In this document: positions 1,071-33,422 of the stretch, piece after piece
Numbering within the stretch: position 1 is the first letter of the stretch
How the letters are laid out: every line of letters starts with the position of its first letter
Source: Gemmatimonadota bacterium
GTDB taxonomy: Bacteria; Gemmatimonadota; Gemmatimonadetes; Gemmatimonadales; Gemmatimonadaceae
Length of the DNA: 39,342 nucleotides
Assembly (NCBI GenBank): GCA_027622655.1
Contig: JAQBYI010000030.1
Location: 1 to 39,342 of the forward strand
Reading direction: 5' to 3'
The notes under the pieces: generated by a model
What the model was told of the DNA's origin: nothing
Database searches by the model: none
The model's input: only the letters and a program-made list of their open reading frames with translations
Position numbers and translations under genes: made by a program

Positions 1071-2783
1071 CTATCGTCCTTTCCCGAACGTGGCTTCCAT
1101 AAGGACCCACAGGTTCGGATCCAGGCGCACGTCCTCCGGCTCCGACGGCACGTCGATCGTGAACGCGTTCGTTCTGGCATTGACCTGCACTCTATGGATG
1201 GCCGGAACCGGCTGGCCCCTGTGGTGAACCGCGACCTCCATCGGCATCGTAAACAGGCTCCCGTCCGTCTGCACCTGGTCGAGCGCAATGCGCACCTGTC
1301 GGACGCCGGCGTCATACGTCCAGCTGCCAGCGAGCTTGAGGGTGCCAGGCTTGTACAGCCACTGGTCGAAGAACCATTCCAGGTCCTGCCCTGAGGCTTC
1401 TTCCATCGCCAGACGGAAGTCGGCGGTTGTCGCGCTCGCGTTGAAGTGCCGCTGGTAGTACGTCCGGATGCCGCGCTGAAAGGCGTCCGAGCCGATCACG
1501 CCGCGCAGCATGTGAAGTGTCCAGCTCCCTTTCTGGTAGGTGTGCGAGCTGGTCACATCCTCCATACGGCTCAGGTTCTTGTGGACGATGGTGTAGTCGG
1601 GATGCGACGCCGCGAAGGTCATCACGGTGCGCCGACTGGCCTCGAGCCCGCGAATGAATTCGTCCCGGCCGTACGCGCGCTCGATGAACAACTGCGTGAA
1701 GTAGGTCGCGAATCCTTCGCTCAGCCAGACGTCGTCCCAGTCGGACTCCGTGACGGCGTTGCCAAACCACTGATGGGCGATCTCGTGGATGACGACGTTG
1801 CGCCAGCGGACGCTCCGCGTGCCGGTCACCGAACTCTCGTTGTAGAGGATCGCGGACGCCGACTCCATTCCGCCGGCAACGCTGCTGGCCTGAATGTTGG
1901 CCAGCCGCTCGTAGGCAAAGGGACCGACGTAGTCGCTGTAGAAGGCGAGCACCTGCTTGGTCGGTGACGCGAAGTCCGCGAACCCGGCGTCGCGATCCTG
2001 CGGATACACCCAGGTCTCAATCGCCTTCCCCTCGAACGTGTCCACCCGCTGCATGGCGAAGCGCGCCACGCCCAGCATGTACAGCCACGGCGCGATCGGC
2101 ACCGAGTTCCTCCAGTGCGTGCGTCGCATGCCGCCGGGCATGTCCGTAAGCTCGACCTGCAACCCGTTCGACACCACCTGATAATGGCTCGGTGCGGTGA
2201 CGATGAACTCGCTCGTGGCCTTGTCGTAGGGATGGTCGATCGTCGGCAGCCATTGGCGGGCGCGGTTCGGCCAGTTGTCGCTGAAGAAGGTGCGATCGCC
2301 GTGCTTGTTCTTGCCGGTGAGGAGCCCGGTGGCGGGTGTCCCCGAATATTGCACGACCACCCGCGCGCGCTGCTGTACCGCGCGCTGCTGTACCGCGCGC
2401 TGCTGTACCGCGCGCTGCTGTACCGCGCGCTGCTGCACCGCGGGCGGCGAGGCCAGCGGAATGCGCAGCTCGTCATTCGCGTGCGTGTACGGCACCGGTG
2501 CGCCGTTCAGCGTGACGGCAGACACGCGCATGCCCTTTCCGCCGCGAGCCGCATCGGCGTTGGCCAAGTCGAGTCGGACGGCGCGCGCATCCGGCGTCGT
2601 GAAGCGAAGGTCGAGCGTCAGTTCGCCGACGATCGCGTCGGTCGTGTCCGAGAGCTCAAGCCGGAAAGCGTAGTTGAGCGCATCGATGGCGGGGTTCTTC
2701 GGATACGTGTCGAACGGCGTTGATGGGGCGACGAACGTCACCATCAGCGCGAGCCGCGACGCGAATCTGGGCATGCGGCTCAT
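1071..2783 (-). CDS. Secreted M1-family metallopeptidase
   Basis: This 570-residue zinc aminopeptidase-like protein carries HEIAH at residues 333-337 and the third zinc ligand at E356 in LSEGF, giving the HExxH-x18-E pattern of the M1 family. A GGMES segment shortly before replaces the usual GAMEN exopeptidase motif. The N-terminus is hydrophobic and may be a short signal peptide, suggesting action on peptides outside the cytoplasm. The N-terminal beta domain contains five tandem AVQQR units (about residues 115-139) encoded by a 15-bp repeat. The gene overlaps the upstream M24 peptidase gene by 4 bp (ATGA), so the two are probably translationally coupled. The 3' end faces the ABC remnant. Confidence 0.9.
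2366..2440. repeat. 15-bp tandem repeat inside the M1 peptidase gene
   Basis: Five copies of CGCGCTGCTGTACCG run head to tail (2366-2440); the fifth has a C in place of one T. On the coding strand each copy encodes AVQQR. Because the unit is a multiple of three, copy-number change would alter protein length without shifting the frame. Confidence 0.95.
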
Positions 2784-4249
2784 TCGCGGTTTGATTCCGG
2801 GCCGCGCGGCGGCGGGACTGGCTTGTGCAGCTGCACCATTCCCGGCTCGGCGATCGTCCGCTGAACGTCGGCGATGCGCGTCGGCACGAATGCGCTGAGA
2901 TTTTCCACGCCGTTGGCCGTCACCAGTGCCACGTCCTCGATTCGGATGTAGAGCCGCTCCTCGGGAATCCAGATCATCGGGTCGATCGTGAACACCATGC
3001 CCGGCGCGAGCGGTACGCCCCGCAGGCGCCCGACGTCGTGTACGGCCATGCCCACTGAGTGCTGGAAGTGGCCGCGGAACTTCACGCCTTCCTGCACCGC
3101 CTTGAGGTGGGCGGGCGAGGCGAACGACTTGCCCACGAGATACTGCGTCATGTCTGCTGCTGCGCGGTCGAGCACCTCCTCGGACGTAACGCCGGGCTTG
3201 ATGTGACGGAACAGCGCATCGCGATATGCGACGATGAACTCGTACAGTGCCGCCTGCGCTGGGGTGAACGTTCCGTTGACCGGCCAGATGCGCGTGACGT
3301 CGCTCGTGTAGTAGCGGTAGTCGGGCGCATAGTCCATCAACACGAGGTCGCCGTCACGCAGCACGTCGGACTTGCGGAAGTAGTGCCCCATGAAGGCGTT
3401 CGTCCCGCCCCCGATGATGGAGGCGTAGCCGTCGCCGCGCGCGCCGTTCAGGTAGAACACGTACTTGGCGGCCGCGTCGAGCTGGTATTCGTACGCGCCA
3501 GGGCTCGTCGACCGCATTGCCTCGGTGATGCCGAGCCCGGCCAGCTGCGTGGCCCTGCGGATGAGGACGATCTCCGCGGCACTCTTGATCAGGCGCATGG
3601 CGTCGAGCGCCGGCGACAGGTCACGGATCTCGAACTGCGGGAAGCGTGCTTTCACGAGCCGGACGAAGTGGGACTCGCGCGGCGGGCGGCCATCCCACGG
3701 GTCGCCCGCGGCGCGGACTTGGGCAGCGAGCAACTCATCGCGGCTGTCGTTACCCGTCTCCATCGGCGCGAGCGCGGTGTAGAGTGCCATTGCCGGCGGG
3801 CGCAGGAGGTCGGCGCCCACGAGGTCCTGCGCGAGGTTCTCAAGCCCGCGCACCCGATTGACGCCGGTGAGCTGCGTGAGCAGGACGCTGTCCTCAACCG
3901 ACAGAATCTTGCCCTGCGAACGCTCGCGCCCCTCGTCGCGGCGAGGGAGGTAGAGTGTGGTTGTTCGGCTGCGGCCATTGAGCAGGAGGTAGGCGTGCTC
4001 CGACTCCACGCCGCACAGGTAGTAGAAGTCATTCGACTGCCGGAACACGCTGAAGCCCGGCAACCCGCTGGCCCCCTGCACAACGGCGATTCCCTGCGTG
4101 CCGATGGCATCGTAGATTCGCGCGCGCCGGGCCGCGAACTCCTCGCTGGAGAAGTCGACTTGGTAACCACTCGGGGCCTGAGCGCCAGCGACGGAACCCG
4201 CGATGCACAGTAGGCCCGCGGCGAGGGATTGCGTTGAGAGGAAGCGCAT
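2780..4249 (-). CDS. Secreted M24-family Xaa-Pro aminopeptidase
   Basis: The 489-residue protein starts with a clear signal peptide ending in VAGAQA, then an aminopeptidase-P N-terminal domain (about 30-190) and the pita-bread catalytic domain (about 215-455). Expected metal ligands are visible at D306, D317, H397 and E438. The position normally held by Glu in the T-V-E-P segment is Asp423 (TIDPM). Members cleave the bond before proline in peptides, so with the coupled M1 enzyme downstream this looks like a peptide-scavenging pair in the periplasm or outside the cell. The gene is first in its two-gene operon. Its promoter should lie within 4250-4560. Confidence 0.9.
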   Translation of the reverse strand: MRFLSTQSLAAGLLCIAGSVAGAQAPSGYQVDFSSEEFAARRARIYDAIGTQGIAVVQGASGLPGFSVFRQSNDFYYLCGVESEHAYLLLNGRSRTTTLYLPRRDEGRERSQGKILSVEDSVLLTQLTGVNRVRGLENLAQDLVGADLLRPPAMALYTALAPMETGNDSRDELLAAQVRAAGDPWDGRPPRESHFVRLVKARFPQFEIRDLSPALDAMRLIKSAAEIVLIRRATQLAGLGITEAMRSTSPGAYEYQLDAAAKYVFYLNGARGDGYASIIGGGTNAFMGHYFRKSDVLRDGDLVLMDYAPDYRYYTSDVTRIWPVNGTFTPAQAALYEFIVAYRDALFRHIKPGVTSEEVLDRAAADMTQYLVGKSFASPAHLKAVQEGVKFRGHFQHSVGMAVHDVGRLRGVPLAPGMVFTIDPMIWIPEERLYIRIEDVALVTANGVENLSAFVPTRIADVQRTIAEPGMVQLHKPVPPPRGPESNRE

Positions 4250-4476
4250 TCAGGAAACGGTGAGGGAAGCGCGGATGAACGGCGGTCGGCAGCCTTTCGG
4301 CGAATGTACAGCACCGTGTGGGTGCGTGCCATCGCCGCTCGCCGTCTTTCAGCTCGGCAGCTTTGTGCTGCACAACCATATGATGCTCAACATCGGATGG
4401 CGGCTTTCCGCGTTGCAGGGCATGGGCGGGACGACTGGGTGGTCTGAGCGCGTGCCCTCCGAGCCAGCGGGGTGTT

Positions 4477-4497
4477 ATGCAGCGTGCCTCGCTGCAT
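4477..4497. repeat. Inverted repeat, 8-bp arms
   Basis: ATGCAGCG (4477-4484) and CGCTGCAT (4490-4497) are perfect reverse complements around TGCCT. No T-run follows on either side, so it is more likely a protein-binding site or a recombination scar than a terminator. Confidence 0.6.
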
Positions 4498-4589
4498 CAA
4501 CCGATCGGTGGCGAGCCGGAAAGCGGTAGTCACGTGTTGGCCGGATATGGTATTGCGAGGTCCGCGGCCTGGATTGATCATTAGAATAT

Positions 4590-4607
4590 GCAGCAAAAAT
4601 TTGCTGC
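4590..4607. repeat. Palindrome with 8-bp arms in A/T-rich patch
   Basis: GCAGCAAA (4590-4597) and TTTGCTGC (4600-4607) pair perfectly around AA. It lies upstream of both possible brnT promoters and could be an operator. Function is unknown. Confidence 0.6.
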
Positions 4608-4617
4608 CTAACCCAGC

Positions 4618-4647
4618 TTGATTCCAATATCCTTGCTGTCTAATACT
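4618..4647 (+). promoter_or_regulatory. Possible upstream promoter for brnTA
   Basis: TTGATT (4618-4623) and TAATAC (4641-4646) are separated by 17 bp, a reasonable sigma70-type pair. It would give a leader of about 60 bases before brnT. The match is by eye and the region is A/T-rich, so chance is possible. Confidence 0.3.
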
Positions 4648-4678
4648 CGCTAGGCCCTCCGCCAGCGGGTGTTTGCGC

Positions 4679-4707
4679 TTGACTAGCGTATATACCAGAC
4701 ATATACT
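4679..4707 (+). promoter_or_regulatory. brnTA promoter with overlapping inverted repeat
   Basis: TTGACT (4679-4684) and TATACT (4702-4707) are spaced by 17 bp, a near-consensus sigma70-type promoter. The inverted repeat GTATAT (4688-4693) / ATATAC (4701-4706) lies in the spacer and over the -10 box. BrnA-type antitoxins are known to repress their own operon, so this repeat is a likely BrnA or BrnTA operator. Transcription from here would start at about 4713-4714, on or next to the GTG start codon, which predicts a leaderless or nearly leaderless mRNA. Confidence 0.55.
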
Positions 4708-4713
4708 CCCGCG

Positions 4714-5061
4714 GTGACCGACGACATTTACGATCGGCTCGCGCGCTGCGAGGGATTCGACTGGGGCGAGGGCAACGCCCCGAAAGTCCAGGCGCGTCAC
4801 GATGTTGAGCCCGGCGAATGCGAGCAGGCGTTTGTCAGCGAGCCGTTGCTGGTATTCGCAGACCCGCACCACTCGCAGCACGAAGAACGGTGGCGTGCGC
4901 TCGGGGGGACGCTTGGTGGCCGGCGCCTGCACCTGGGATTCACGATCCGGCGCAAGGTGTTGATTCGCGTACTCACGGCACGCGACATGAATCGCAAGGA
5001 GCGAATGATCTATGAGCAAGCCAAAACGCGGTTTGAAGAAGATCCCGACGTTCAGGTCTGA
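4714..5061 (+). CDS. brnT: BrnT-family ribonuclease toxin
   Basis: The 115-residue product matches the BrnT pattern: FDWGEGNAPK near the start, then a PLLVFADPHHSQHEERW segment, an IRRKVLIRVLTARDMNRKER core and a Y-E-x-A helix. BrnT toxins are small RelE-like ribonucleases that block translation and are neutralised by BrnA. The start is GTG at 4714, with no visible ribosome-binding site and a promoter whose predicted start point falls on the codon. It overlaps brnA by 50 bp, the usual toxin-first order for this family. The C-terminus (FEEDPDVQV) may be slightly longer than typical. Confidence 0.85.
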   Translation: MTDDIYDRLARCEGFDWGEGNAPKVQARHDVEPGECEQAFVSEPLLVFADPHHSQHEERWRALGGTLGGRRLHLGFTIRRKVLIRVLTARDMNRKERMIYEQAKTRFEEDPDVQV

Positions 5062-7558: not shown

Positions 7559-8461
7559 ATGACCAAGCGACGTCGGTGGATCTTGATCGTTCTCGGCGCC
7601 GCCGCCGTTCTCTTTGGCGTCGCATTCACCCAGTGGCAGGCGGCGATAAAGAGAAACCGTTCGATACCCGACGATCCGTTCCACATTGCCGGCAACCTGT
7701 ATTACGTCGGGTCAACCGGGGTGACCTCATTCCTGCTAACCGGACCCGAGGGCCACGTGTTGATCGACGGTGGCTTTCCCGAAACCGCACCACTGATCCT
7801 CGGCAGTATCGCCAAGCTCGGCTTCAACATCACCGACGTCAAAGTGTTGCTCAACACGCACGCGCATTCCGATCACGCGGGCGGCCTGCGCGAGCTGCAG
7901 GAAGCATCGGGTGCCGAACTGTGGGTGAGCGAAGGCGATGCCGATGTGATGGCGGCCGGTGGCCGTGGCGACCGAGCCCTTGGCCCACTCGGCACTCTTG
8001 GGTACTACCTGGGTGGATTGAAGTTCGCGGCGCCGCGCATTGACCACCGGTTCAAGGACGGAGAGACGATTCGAGTTGGTCCGATTGAACTGACCGCACA
8101 CGTCACCGCGGGCCACACGCGCGGGTGCACGTCGTGGTCGTTCCCCGTTCGCGACGGCGACCGTGAGCTGCTTGCCGTGGAAATCTGCAGCCTCACGTTG
8201 TTCCCGTTGGTGAAGCTGGTTGAACCGGAGGCGTATCCGGGAATCCGGTCCGACTTCGAGCGTAGCTACGCGGCGCTGCGGAGCCTGCCCGCCGACATCT
8301 TTCTGGCTTCGCACGGGGACATGTTCAGCATGCAACGCAAGCGGGGAGAACGCGCTGGCGCCAAGGACCCGGTGGATCCGTTCATCGACCGAGCTGGCTA
8401 CCTCAGCTTCATCGACCGGGCCGAAGCGAGATTTCGCGAAGCGCTCGCGAAGCAGCAGTGA
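7559..8461 (+). CDS. Subclass B3-like metallo-beta-lactamase
   Basis: The 300-residue protein starts with a membrane anchor or signal segment (about 7-24). The zinc site is complete: H101, H103, D105 and H106 in HAHSDHAGG, H186 in TAGHTRGCTSW and H252 in ASHGD. Ser211 follows Cys210 where B3 enzymes carry Ser in place of the B1 cysteine ligand. GHTxGCTSW is typical of the B3 group (L1, GOB, THIN-B), which hydrolyse beta-lactams in the periplasm. Related environmental enzymes may have other substrates, so the activity is an inference. It starts 40 bp after the membrane-protein gene on the same strand and may share its transcript. Confidence 0.82.
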   Translation: MTKRRRWILIVLGAAAVLFGVAFTQWQAAIKRNRSIPDDPFHIAGNLYYVGSTGVTSFLLTGPEGHVLIDGGFPETAPLILGSIAKLGFNITDVKVLLNTHAHSDHAGGLRELQEASGAELWVSEGDADVMAAGGRGDRALGPLGTLGYYLGGLKFAAPRIDHRFKDGETIRVGPIELTAHVTAGHTRGCTSWSFPVRDGDRELLAVEICSLTLFPLVKLVEPEAYPGIRSDFERSYAALRSLPADIFLASHGDMFSMQRKRGERAGAKDPVDPFIDRAGYLSFIDRAEARFREALAKQQ

Positions 8462-9060: not shown

Positions 9061-9807
9061 ATGGCGCTCGCGGTCTGTGACAGTAATGCAGGTGGCCGAA
9101 CCTGGTCCGACTCCGTCGTGTGGGTCTCGGGCCTGCTCGGGATTGTTGCGATTGGGCGCCTTCGACTACGGAAGCGGAACCGAAATCCGCGTATACCCAC
9201 TCTACTTCTTGCCGATCAGTCTCTTGGCCTGGCACGCTGGCCGTGCGGGTGGGGCGGTGGCCGCAGTGCTCTGCGCGGCGTCGTGGCTGCTCTCAAACAG
9301 TCTCGCAGGAATGGAGTTTTCGAGTCGCACGATTCTGGTCGTGAATGTGGCGGTCACCGGAGCGTCCTTCCTCTTCGTCGGCCTTCTCATCGCCAAGCTG
9401 CGGAGCGTGCTGGCCCACACGCGGGCGCTGAGTCGCACCGATCCGCTCACGCTACTGCGGAACTCACGCGCGTTCTTCGAAGACTCGGCTCCGCTACTGG
9501 CGCTTTGCCTGCGCACGGGGCGACCACTGACCGTCGCGTACCTCGATCTGGACAATTTCAAGACCGTAAACGACGCGCGCGGACATCAAGCCGGCGATGC
9601 ACTCTTGAAGGACGTTGCCGCCGCAATACGGGACGCACTGCGGCCGAGCGACCTTTGCGCGCGGCTCGGCGGAGATGAGTTCGCAGTCCTGCTTCCCGAA
9701 CTGGGGGAACGCGACGTGGAGCTCAGATGTACATCGCGAAAGCGGCCGGGCGCAATCGCATCACGCGCGTGGTTGTGCACGCCGCAAATGAAATCGATGC
9801 AGGCTGA
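9061..9807 (+). pseudogene. Broken GGDEF diguanylate cyclase gene
   Basis: Three coherent pieces lie in two frame changes. From ATG 9061 a frame encodes a first hydrophobic helix (SVVWVSGLLGIVAIG). At the GGG run 9154-9156 the sense shifts by one base to AFDYGSGTEIRVYPLYF, further membrane helices and a GGDEF domain with LDLDNFKTVND and LGGDEFAVLLPE. After GERDVE (about 9722) coding similarity jumps to MYIAKAAGRNRI in another frame (9727-9807, ending in TGA). The stretch between, normally some 55-65 codons of the cyclase fold, is missing. A single-base insertion plus an internal deletion makes the gene inactive. It would otherwise be a membrane-bound cyclic-di-GMP synthase. Confidence 0.75.
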
Positions 9808-9886
9808 CGACGGTCCAACCTCTTCCCCGCAGGGCGGTCCCGCGTCGACATTTCCGGGCGCAGGATCGCTTCTATCGGGAGACGCA

Positions 9887-11269
9887 ATGCATCGACGATC
9901 GACGATGGCACTTGGCCTGCTGCTCGCGTGCACAGTGAGCGCGCAGGCCGGCAGTCAACAGTCACGAACTTCTACGGGAGCCCCCGCGCTCAAGAGTGGC
10001 GAGGTTCGGCTCACCTACCTCGGGAACGCCGGCTGGGAGATCACGGATGGGAACAAGATCATCCTCGTGGACCCGTTCCTCACGCAGTTCGCGCGGTGGA
10101 TGCCATCGGCCGCCGAATCCGGTCCCGCGCCGGACGCGCCCTACCCTGCCGACACCGCGCTGATCAACGCGCACGTCAAGCGCGCAGACTACATCGTGAT
10201 CACGCATGGACATCCGGATCACGCGCTCGACGCGGGGTACATCTCGCGCCGCACCGGGGCCGTGATCATCGGCCATGAGACCGCGGCGAATCTCGCGCGC
10301 GCGTACGGCGTTACTGACAGCTCGCTCATCACCGTCATCGGCGGCGAGGACTACGAGTTCGGCGACTTCTCGCTGAAGGTGATCCCGAACATCCACAGCG
10401 CGCTCGACGACAAGCACTACTACAACAACACACGCGGAATCGTCGGCAATGCGCCGCGTGGTCTGCGCGCGCCGCTCCGCCGCCAGGATTACGTCGAGGG
10501 CGGAAACCTCGCATACCTGCTGCGCATCGGCGGCCACGAAATCCTGATCATGGGTTCGATGAACTTTATCGAACGCGAGATGGAGGGCCTGCGCCCCGAC
10601 ATCGCTCTCGTCGGCTCCAACAGCCAACGTCTCGAGATCCGCGAATTCACGGGCCGCCTGATGCGTGCGCTCGGCAATCCGGCCATCGTGATCCCCACGC
10701 ACGCCGATGCCTACGGCAACCCGAATCCGTCGGCTGCGGCGCTCGCCGATCGCAAGCGCTTCCAGGAGGAGGTCGCGACCGCCTCGCCGGGGAGTCGTTT
10801 CATCACCCCGAAATGGTTTGAGCCGATTGTCGTGCCGGCGCGTATGTCGAGTTCACCGATGAGCGCAACGCAGGGAACAGCGCGGCAGGTCGTGAACCCG
10901 CCGGGCATCTCGCCGCTGGTGGCCGCATACTCGGTGGCAATCCGCAACGGGAATAGAGTGTTCGTCTCGGGCATGACGGGGATCAAGCCGGGCACTCAGG
11001 AAATAGTCGCCGGTGGTATTTCCGCGCAGACGAGGCAGACGCTCGACAACATCAAAACTTCTGTGGAGGCGGCGGGAGTAACGATGGCAAATGTCGACGA
11101 GTGCACCGTCTTCCTGATGGACATGGCCGACTACGCGGCGATGAACGCCGTTTACATACAGTTCTTCCCCGTCAACCCGCCCGTCCGCGCGGCGCTTGCC
11201 GTTTCGGCGCTGCCAAGGCCGGCGGCTCGCGTGGAGATCAAGTGCAGTGCGACCATCCCGGGACGCTGA
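9887..11269 (+). CDS. Secreted MBL-fold hydrolase fused to a Rid (YjgF) domain
   Basis: ATG 9887 has GGGAG upstream and starts a signal peptide (to about residue 21, TVSAQA). The first domain (about 38-318) is an UlaG-like MBL fold with H107, H109, D111, H112 in THGHPDH and H272 in IPTHAD. Without any stop the frame continues into a complete RidA/YjgF domain (about 332-458), with the SGMTG strand and R434 at the place of the imino-acid-binding arginine. The total is 460 residues. Rid domains deaminate reactive enamines/imines; the MBL part is likely a hydrolase of unknown substrate. Methionines 320 and 325 could start a separate Rid protein but lack a ribosome-binding site. The open frame also extends upstream through the broken GGDEF gene. 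Confidence 0.75.
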   Translation: MHRRSTMALGLLLACTVSAQAGSQQSRTSTGAPALKSGEVRLTYLGNAGWEITDGNKIILVDPFLTQFARWMPSAAESGPAPDAPYPADTALINAHVKRADYIVITHGHPDHALDAGYISRRTGAVIIGHETAANLARAYGVTDSSLITVIGGEDYEFGDFSLKVIPNIHSALDDKHYYNNTRGIVGNAPRGLRAPLRRQDYVEGGNLAYLLRIGGHEILIMGSMNFIEREMEGLRPDIALVGSNSQRLEIREFTGRLMRALGNPAIVIPTHADAYGNPNPSAAALADRKRFQEEVATASPGSRFITPKWFEPIVVPARMSSSPMSATQGTARQVVNPPGISPLVAAYSVAIRNGNRVFVSGMTGIKPGTQEIVAGGISAQTRQTLDNIKTSVEAAGVTMANVDECTVFLMDMADYAAMNAVYIQFFPVNPPVRAALAVSALPRPAARVEIKCSATIPGR

Positions 11270-11285: not shown

Positions 11286-12470
11286 ATGAAGCATTTCTAT
11301 GCCAGACCGATGATGGCCCTGATCGGCAGTGCGCTGATCGCGCTGATCGCGCTGCCGGCATCGGCCGGCCAGGGCACCTCGGTTCGATCGTTCGATCGCG
11401 TGCTCCTGCTCGAAACCACGAGTGAGACGTCTGCGAGCGTCAGCGTCGCTGACCTGGACGGGAACGGTACTCTCGACGTGGTGCTCGCCAAGGGGCGGCA
11501 CTGGCCTCTCAACAACCTGATCCTGCGCAACGACGGCAAGGGACATTTCACAACCGAGCCGCTCGCGGACGCGCCGGACCGTACCTATTCGGCCGCGCTC
11601 GCCGATCTCGACGGCGACGGTGATCTCGACATGGTCGTCAGCAACGACCGACCCGACCTGAAGCTGATCTACCTCAACGACGGCAACGCGAAATATCGGG
11701 TCGCGGGGACGTTCGGCCGGTCCGAGTGGTCAACGCGCTATGTGACGGTCGCCGACCTGAATGGCGACGCGCGTCCTGACCTGATCGTGGCCAATCGCAG
11801 TTCGAACCCCGCCAACCCGCGGCCGAGTTTCGTGTGCCTGAACGACGGCAAGGGCGCGTTTCCCGCGTGTGACGCGCTCGGAACGCAATCGGCGACAATC
11901 ATCGTCGCGGCCGACCTCGATGGCGACGGCAAGACCGACCTGTTCGTACCGCACCGCGACGGCGGGCAGAATCTGATTTTTTGGAACGACGGAACCGGAC
12001 GATTCGCCGCTGGTGCGCCCGCCGGTCCGGCCAAGTCACAGATCCGCGCTGCCGTAGCCGCAGACATCAATGGCGACGGGACCCAGGACCTCGTCGTTGG
12101 TGACGCACAGAACGGGATGTTTCTCTATGCCGGCGCGGGCCGCCGCACGTTCGGTTCGCCCATGGCGCTCGGCGCGGGAACAGGCGCGCCTTATTCGATC
12201 GGTGTCACCGACCTGAATCGCGACGGCAAGCCCGACATCGTCGTAGGACGGCAGGAGGCTCCGGGGTCGATCTTCTTTAATGAAGGCGGAGAGCAGCCAA
12301 GGTTCATTGAAACGCGCTGGAATGACGGTAAAGGTGCGGTCTATGGCATCGTCATTGCCGATCTCGATGGTGACGGTTGGCCTGACATTGCGGCGGCCCG
12401 CTCCGACGCGCCGAACGGTATTTGGTTCAACGGGCCGGCGGAGAAGCCCCGAACTCAAGGATCACCATGA
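11286..12470 (+). CDS. Secreted FG-GAP/VCBS repeat beta-propeller protein
   Basis: A signal peptide (to about residue 31, ALPASAG) is followed by seven FG-GAP-like repeats, each with a calcium-loop motif such as DLDGNGTLD, DLDGDGDLD, DLNGDARPD or DINGDGTQD. Seven repeats fit one closed beta-propeller covering the whole mature protein of about 360 residues. Such propellers bind ligands or other proteins outside the cell; no catalytic site is evident. It starts 16 bp after the MBL-Rid gene with AAGGAAG upstream and overlaps the DoxX gene by 4 bp, so an operon is likely. Confidence 0.88.
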   Translation: MKHFYARPMMALIGSALIALIALPASAGQGTSVRSFDRVLLLETTSETSASVSVADLDGNGTLDVVLAKGRHWPLNNLILRNDGKGHFTTEPLADAPDRTYSAALADLDGDGDLDMVVSNDRPDLKLIYLNDGNAKYRVAGTFGRSEWSTRYVTVADLNGDARPDLIVANRSSNPANPRPSFVCLNDGKGAFPACDALGTQSATIIVAADLDGDGKTDLFVPHRDGGQNLIFWNDGTGRFAAGAPAGPAKSQIRAAVAADINGDGTQDLVVGDAQNGMFLYAGAGRRTFGSPMALGAGTGAPYSIGVTDLNRDGKPDIVVGRQEAPGSIFFNEGGEQPRFIETRWNDGKGAVYGIVIADLDGDGWPDIAAARSDAPNGIWFNGPAEKPRTQGSP

Positions 12471-33035: not shown

Positions 33036-33422
33036 CTACGGCATATACGCGATGCAATCGATCTCGACGCGAAGACCCTCGCCCGGGAGCCCGGCGGCTT
33101 GAATCGTCGTGCGGGCCGGACGATGATCCCCGAACATCCGTGAATACACCGCGTTCATCGCCGAAAACTCCTTCATGTCCATGAGGAACACGCCGCAGCG
33201 GAGCACGTACTTGAGGTCCGAGCCTGCTGCCTGAAGAATCGTCTGCACGTTCTTGAGGCATTGCTCGGTCTGCTCGCCGGGGTCGGCGCTGACGATTTTG
33301 CCGGTGGCTGGATCCACGGCGCCCTGACCGGAAACGAACACGAGGCGCTCGAATCCCATTCCCGGTGAATACGGGCCGACGGGCGCGGGGAGGTTGGCGG
33401 CTTGGACGGGACGGTGAGTCAT
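33036..33422 (-). CDS. RidA-family enamine/imine deaminase
   Basis: The 128-residue protein has the Rid features APVGPYSPG, FVSGQGAVDP, the ECLKNVQTILQAAGS-like helix and an Arg in HRPARTTIQ at the imino-acid site, ending in RVEIDCIA. Rid proteins release ammonia from reactive enamines and imines made by PLP enzymes. It has no signal peptide, unlike the MBL-fused Rid domain at 10883-11263. It lies 40 bp upstream of the GGDEF-receiver gene on the same strand. Confidence 0.9.
   Translation of the reverse strand: MTHRPVQAANLPAPVGPYSPGMGFERLVFVSGQGAVDPATGKIVSADPGEQTEQCLKNVQTILQAAGSDLKYVLRCGVFLMDMKEFSAMNAVYSRMFGDHRPARTTIQAAGLPGEGLRVEIDCIAYMP

Follow-up and report, generated by a model that had tools for sequence, protein, structure and literature searches.

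An exported MBL-Rid fusion protein and its rearranged relatives in Gemmatimonadota

What might a Rid domain do in a protein that carries a signal peptide and a hydrolase fold? Studies of Rid proteins have treated them as protectors of PLP enzymes from 2-aminoacrylate in the cytosol, and an earlier note on the DNA considered here had described a single gene in which an exported MBL runs in frame into a complete Rid domain with its active arginine. The gene lies in a window (the whole stretch analysed) of 39,342 nucleotides from a Gemmatimonadota bacterium of the family Gemmatimonadaceae (assembly GCA_027622655.1, contig JAQBYI010000030.1). The analysis confirmed the fusion and found it to be part of something larger than first claimed: hydrolase, Rid and propeller form an exported unit that is conserved and has been rearranged repeatedly.

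The fusion gene and its two domains

The translation and Pfam matches give the order of the product as signal peptide, MBL, short linker and complete Rid, all in one stop-free frame, as the earlier description had it (Table 1); putative catalytic residues are conserved in both domains. An AlphaFold2 model built on a 55-row alignment contains two well-formed domains (mean pLDDT 85, pTM 0.67), and the linker between them is loose, with pLDDT below 50 at residues 323-329. A longer open reading frame from 9077 was considered as the gene and rejected, as it starts inside a GGDEF gene with a broken-off domain; 9887 was taken as the true start, which is supported by the ribosome-binding site and the signal peptide as well as by the relatives. 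In the GGDEF gene itself (9077-9807) the domain stops at position 94 of the 161 in the profile, and MYIAKAAGRNRIT, the signature of its C-terminal end, is picked up again at 9727 in a different frame, consistent with an internal deletion, a frameshift or an assembly collapse.

Table 1. Coordinates in the window of the fusion gene, its parts and the adjoining propeller gene.
Feature	Position	Strand	Basis or remark
GGGAG, Shine-Dalgarno-like	9877..9881	+	5 bases 5' of the ATG at 9887
MBL-Rid fusion gene, 460 aa	9887..11269	+	Stop-free frame; PF13483 and PF01042; AlphaFold2 model
Signal peptide, residues 1-21	9887..9949	+	Sequence; heuristic test; type I cut after AQA or weak lipobox
MBL-fold domain, residues 39-316	10001..10834	+	Pfam; fold similarity to TM1162 of UPF0173
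Metal motif HGHPDH, residues 107-112	10205..10222	+	Conservation in alignment A1; alignment to TM1162
His170	10394-10396	+	Predicted metal ligand, with the HGHPDH motif
Ser224	10556-10558	+	TM1162 has Asp there
His272	10700-10702	+	Predicted metal ligand, with the HGHPDH motif
Linker, residues 319-333	10841..10885	+	pLDDT; DNA alignment; junction list
Rid domain, residues 334-457	10886..11257	+	Pfam; conservation; fold match to 1x25
Arg434 of Rid	11186-11188	+	Putative catalytic residue, conserved
Exported FG-GAP (VCBS-type) propeller gene	11286..12470	+	PF13517, 188.8 bits; signal peptide

Both domains are members of known superfamilies. Profile PF13483 matches residues 41-272 of the MBL half with 43.6 bits (cut-off 24), and the HxHxDH, His and His ligands of that superfamily are present; His107, His109, Asp111, His112, His170 and His272 are invariant in every readable row of alignment A1. 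The closest solved folds are those of UPF0173 proteins such as TM1162 (3x2y; Z 23.6, 215 residues aligned, rmsd 2.3), and the UPF0173 hydrolases taken together (TM1162, Igni18 and 7e3v) match with Z values of 22-24 at 24-25% identity, which places the domain within the UPF0173 fold. The earlier label, UlaG-like, was only roughly right: the UlaG-like structure 3bv6 matches at Z 21.2, the domain is nearer to UPF0173, and two ligand positions of that group are missing. The His of the 'LGHA' motif that forms the N-terminal GH ligand of TM1162 (His8) is replaced by Asn47 in the window and by Asn or Ala, with Thr or Cys in rare cases, in the fusion family, and in motif 4 the Asp of 'GDT' has become Ser224, giving GSM. 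These replacements suggest that metal binding may differ from that of the nearest folds. The family-level models score below their cut-offs, at 60.7 bits against 144 for UPF0173 (NF001911) and 15.1 bits against 306 for the UlaG lactonase (NF008688). A further difference from the UPF0173 hydrolases is that the window MBL is exported.

The Rid half matches positions 8-120 of the 121 in PF01042 (residues 345-456; 99.9 bits, cut-off 27.3) and the fold of 1x25 (Z 22.9, rmsd 1.2). Arg434 corresponds to Arg105 of Salmonella RidA and is accompanied by Asn420 and Glu450, which we take to be catalytic positions beside it; all three are kept in all 32-33 rows of A1. The likeness to RidA thus covers the fold (Z about 22-23) and the Asn, Arg and Glu positions, whereas the window Rid differs in being exported and fused to a hydrolase, and it falls below the cut-off of the RidA model TIGR00004 (100.5 bits against 106.25). 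Its score for the RutC model TIGR03610 is 73.8 bits, where the cut-off is 169.1, and the protein has one Rid domain, not the three in tandem that characterize 3x-RidA. A catalytic role of the Rid arginine is described in passages of a published study (PMC8113886).

The conserved residues bear on a quite improbable reading in which the Rid would be a trimer-forming scaffold or a ligand binder devoid of deaminase activity, with all catalysis left to the MBL. Rid proteins assemble as trimers, as stated in sections of the 2015 survey (PMC4433059), so that a fusion would give MBL trimers, and the third repeat of one triple-Rid protein (at L117, see below) seems by eye to be without the arginine, but the invariance of Asn420, Arg434 and Glu450 in the rows read is more than a scaffold needs. 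Pairwise dN/dS values among the relatives are low in the MBL part (0.02-0.19) and in the Rid part (0.04-0.17), which indicates that both halves are under purifying selection. A second Rid of 128 residues, apparently cytosolic, is encoded elsewhere in the window (33039-33422, minus strand).

Fused, split and solitary relatives

By the earlier note, the fusion claim would fall if homologues were always two separate genes and reads showed a stop near 10840; a search of 179 genomes of the family speaks against this. At a match threshold of E<=1e-45, 40 genomes match: MBL and Rid are fused in 15, encoded by separate adjacent genes in seven (in G105 they lie on different contigs, at the ends of these), represented by a Rid without an MBL match in 17 (one of them a Rid-FG-GAP fusion, and another, G010, 61% complete and cut) and by an MBL alone in one. 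The fused set comprises eight MBL-Rid proteins (a contig end truncates that of G093, and that of G013 is without its 5' part), four MBL-Rid-FG-GAP proteins and three FG-GAP-MBL-Rid proteins. Besides the window's own genome, 14 others of the family have the two-domain frame, as does one genome from another family of the same class, at 67-76% identity; the copy outside the family (G354, 71% identity) was acquired by transfer or otherwise.

Because the fused frame is present in 16 genomes, the window's included, the fusion is not an assembly slip. This brings close to refutation the reading of the locus as an artefact, arising either from an assembly join or from internal starts at 10844 or 10859 that would yield a separate cytosolic Rid. 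Split relatives do exist, and the junction does contain these two in-frame ATGs, but neither is preceded by a purine run like the GGGAG of the true start, in keeping with the earlier observation that the gene has no internal ribosome-binding site. Furthermore, the Rids of the seven split genomes bear signals, so that the relatives do not show a cytosolic Rid product.

The DNA alignment and the junction list place the linker where, in split relatives, the MBL ends in its stop and the signal peptide of the Rid follows. The Rid genes of split genomes start with a signal of their own (for example one with a lipobox, LTGC, in L013, another with LAAC in L011, and a type I signal in L024), and in the fused proteins with a readable junction (10 of 16) the hydrophobic stretch of the Rid signal is gone and a short linker is left. 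In the window this linker, ...PARMSSSP-MSA..., echoes the leader of L077 and L081, which starts M[ST]SSP and ends MSA, and these two are the sisters of the window protein in the Rid tree (85/82). We infer that the fusion probably arose by joint loss of the MBL stop and of the core of the Rid signal.

The signal peptide of the window protein reads MHRRSTMALGLLLACTVSAQA and is followed by G; Cys15 forms a weak lipobox, LLAC, within it, and for that reason type I and type II processing are indistinguishable. Under a home-made export rule, which is lenient because 460 of 2600 shuffled upstream stretches pass it, a signal was assigned to 25 of the 26 unfused Rids of the window type (the remaining one, L090, ends at a contig end, and L079 is counted with L078 as one genome divided by a contig break) and to 31 of 35 MBLs (L080 fails; L076, L077 and L131 were unread). 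Among other Rids, 4 of 15 pass the same rule and look like real signals, and two more are without a match. By these predictions, export is not peculiar to the fusion, as unfused Rids carry signals too, and the presence of a signal peptide on split Rids strengthens the export claim. The suggestion that an exported Rid fusion points to an unusual job is upheld in part: the signal-bearing split Rids argue for a job outside the cytoplasm, but export does not set the fusion apart. Export and the functional pairing of MBL and Rid are well supported, and much surer than the mechanism discussed below.

The relatives also differ in the placement of the FG-GAP propeller, which the signal peptides indicate to be a third exported part of the MBL-Rid unit. 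In the window its gene starts 16 bases 3' of the fusion gene with its own AGGAAG site; elsewhere it is a neighbouring gene, or is fused with MBL-Rid or Rid (L066, L067, L070, L071, L073-L075 and L097), either before or after MBL-Rid or, in L097, straight onto Rid. The tree implies at least two changes between the fused and split states and at least three for FG-GAP fusion, numbers that are rough because only 10 of 37 inner branches are starred and bootstrap support is not settled. At L070, where all three parts are fused, the FG-GAP segment lies in two frames (about 4402-4856), owing to a frameshift or a sequencing error.

Other exported Rids and their neighbours

More distant MBLs were found in a variety of settings. 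Among 19 divergent MBL loci that were read (43-51% identity), five have a Rid and six an FG-GAP gene next door, and no Rid was found in the stretch read at 14. With about 7 Rids per 3.1 Mb, the chance of five Rid-bearing loci in 19 is about P = 1.5e-7, a value to be read cautiously because the loci are not independent, one architecture being common to three of the five. An exported triple-Rid adjoins the likewise exported MBL in L117 and L125, and L126, L127 and L132 have a reversed fusion in which a PF14588-type Rid precedes the MBL (Pfam on two of the three). Because 17 family genomes have the exported Rid without an MBL match and 14 of the divergent MBL loci have no Rid in the stretch read, it follows that MBL and Rid can each work alone. 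No Rid was found within the DNA examined around the far MBL matches L029-L043, nor in the 12.9 kb around the single Acidobacteriota MBL homologue (one of 297 genomes at E<=1e-28). At L125 an exported three-Rid protein is fused to an Amidohydro_2 domain (2903-4921), and a stand-alone exported relative of that domain adjoins the MBL at L123 (3973-5022).

Matches to the triple-Rid, in some cases over just a portion of the query, were obtained in 25 of 297 Acidobacteriota genomes and 36 of 390 Gemmatimonadota genomes; the name Acidobacteriota is taken from the titles of the records of L033 and L035. Three-domain Rid fusions (3x-RidA) were described in a survey whose main text uses neither 'signal' nor 'periplasm' (Niehaus 2015, PMC4433059). 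The triple-Rids found here share the three Rids per chain, but they are mostly signal-bearing, with 43 of 55 fetched passing the rule (29 of 55 when only the stretch upstream of the match is scanned), and may adjoin an MBL, amidase or creatininase. The 12 failures include several that are still signal-like by eye and others that are not, and two of the 12 run off contigs. Loci L171 and L177, from two phyla, have equal length and coordinates and are not identical; one assembly may thus be contaminated, and the 55 may include a near-duplicate.

As neighbours of the triple-Rids, the frames scoring best within about 1.5 kb were taken; some are truncated or incorrect, and most belong to unrelated families. 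Creatininase was found upstream at 4 of 50 loci, all four read with signals, in closely related genomes and with at least one divergently transcribed; other neighbours include Amidase, at 3 of 50 and at 1 of 53 loci, acetamidase/formamidase, at 3 of 53, and Lactamase_B_3, at 2 of 50. In G441, labelled Acidobacteria, a twin-arginine amidase (PF01425) lies directly upstream of an exported triple-Rid.

The genome of the window has seven Rid matches, three of them with signals (the fused one, L002 and L004). At L004/L148, two class V aminotransferases with twin-arginine starts are encoded with the exported Rid (L148 849-2153, 4543-5844 and 5964-6410), and these enzymes may supply imines or enamines outside the cytoplasm. 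Such an arrangement would fit the chief rival explanation of the fusion, which we consider unlikely: that the exported Rid removes or exploits imines and enamines released by other exported enzymes, such as PLP enzymes or amino acid oxidases, with the MBL acting in parallel and the fusion serving co-export only. Also in its favour, exported Rids are without an MBL match in 17 of the 40 matching genomes, and Chlamydomonas RIDA is drawn with a periplasmic L-amino acid oxidase in part of a published account (PMC10805672). That LAO2/RIDA pair resembles the present case in having a Rid near an extracellular oxidase, and differs from it in that the Rid is unfused, there is no MBL and the organism is a eukaryotic alga (PMC10805672, same part). 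However, neither a PLP enzyme nor an oxidase was recognised among the families that recur at the MBL-Rid loci, and a shared path is suggested by the repeated fusion of MBL with Rid and by other amide hydrolases encoded beside Rids.

A candidate two-step reaction outside the cytoplasm

We tentatively favour, at a little below an even chance, an exported two-step enzyme in which hydrolysis by the MBL would free an enamine or imine that the Rid would deaminate outside the cytoplasm. The protein would reach this location by signal-peptide cleavage or lipid anchoring. There, the MBL, as a metal hydrolase of the UPF0173 fold, would cut an amide-, lactam- or lactone-type bond and release the enamine or imine, and the Rid, tethered by the short flexible linker, would hydrate it to ammonia and a carbonyl compound, a step modelled on cytosolic RidA and RutC. 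The FG-GAP propeller, in the next gene or, in relatives, in the same gene, probably binds the substrate or a surface. Neither enzyme requires a soluble redox cofactor, which suits an extracytoplasmic setting.

This two-step reading builds on what can be seen in the sequences, namely predicted export signals, the retention of catalytic positions in both domains, and repeated fusion or adjacency. The last of these, involving exported hydrolases and Rids, lends support to the earlier idea of a hydrolase followed by a deaminase; metal loading, the activity of both domains, the order of hydrolysis before deamination and the substrate are what we infer. The reverse order, in which the Rid or a spontaneous step would give a carbonyl that cyclises and the MBL would then open the lactone or lactam, is improbable. 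Its attraction is that UlaG-type MBLs are lactonases (2wyl is annotated as an L-ascorbate-6-phosphate lactonase) and that both domain orders, MBL-Rid and Rid-MBL, occur in the relatives, but the Rid partners in two phyla (Amidase, Creatininase and Amidohydro_2) are easier to see as enamine producers.

The simplest reading of exported amide hydrolases adjoining exported Rids would be that they follow the two-step logic of RutC and RutB, the latter presumably not an MBL, outside the cytoplasm. In the uracil rut pathway of E. coli, RutB hydrolyses ureidoacrylate to 3-aminoacrylate, which is deaminated by RutC, a Rid with the same arginine (PMC8113886, in passages). The likeness is that a C-N hydrolase frees an enamine for an Arg-bearing Rid, and the difference is that RutB and RutC are two separate proteins and that the word 'periplasm' is absent from the paper (PMC8113886). 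Another precedent for a Rid in a catabolic cluster is OngD, which is needed in an oxidative chitin cluster together with the deacylase OngB and whose role is given as unknown; unlike the window Rid, it is unfused, is without an MBL and belongs to an intracytoplasmic pathway, according to sections of its description (PMC9537276). In the open-licence literature, searched by title and abstract opening, no report of an exported bacterial Rid family or of an MBL-Rid fusion was found.

A bolder extension, which we consider somewhat unlikely, is that extracytoplasmic Rid enamine chemistry is a general trait of Gemmatimonadota and Acidobacteriota, with several exported Rid subfamilies fed by non-homologous exported hydrolases (MBL, amidase, creatininase-like and amidohydrolase). 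The MBL-Rid fusion would then represent this trait at its most compact, as a bifunctional N-acyl-enamine (or lactam) hydrolase-deaminase scavenging nitrogen from modified peptides or similar compounds. An exported Rid family, whether lipoproteins or secreted, that has been fused in several orders with a hydrolase and a propeller points to an extracytoplasmic source of enamines or imines worth a dedicated enzyme. As the fused gene would put both steps in one protein, the question of who makes and uses extracytoplasmic enamines becomes directly assayable.

The gene neighbourhood of 61 loci revealed no family pointing to a substrate; besides MBL, Rid and FG-GAP, the widest recurring neighbour was an S9-like peptidase, named by eye, at 9 of the 61 and at mixed distances. 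Upstream of the fusion gene, the window encodes an exported protein of the subclass B3 metallo-beta-lactamase type (7559-8461; NF033105, 272.5 bits, cut-off 240). It was rejected as a partner, as it has no match at E<1e-12 in the 40 stretches L064-L103, the window excepted, and one weaker relative (30%) lies near a divergent MBL. At L116, a PQQ dehydrogenase-FG-GAP fusion (1694-5038) adjoins a lipoprotein MBL.
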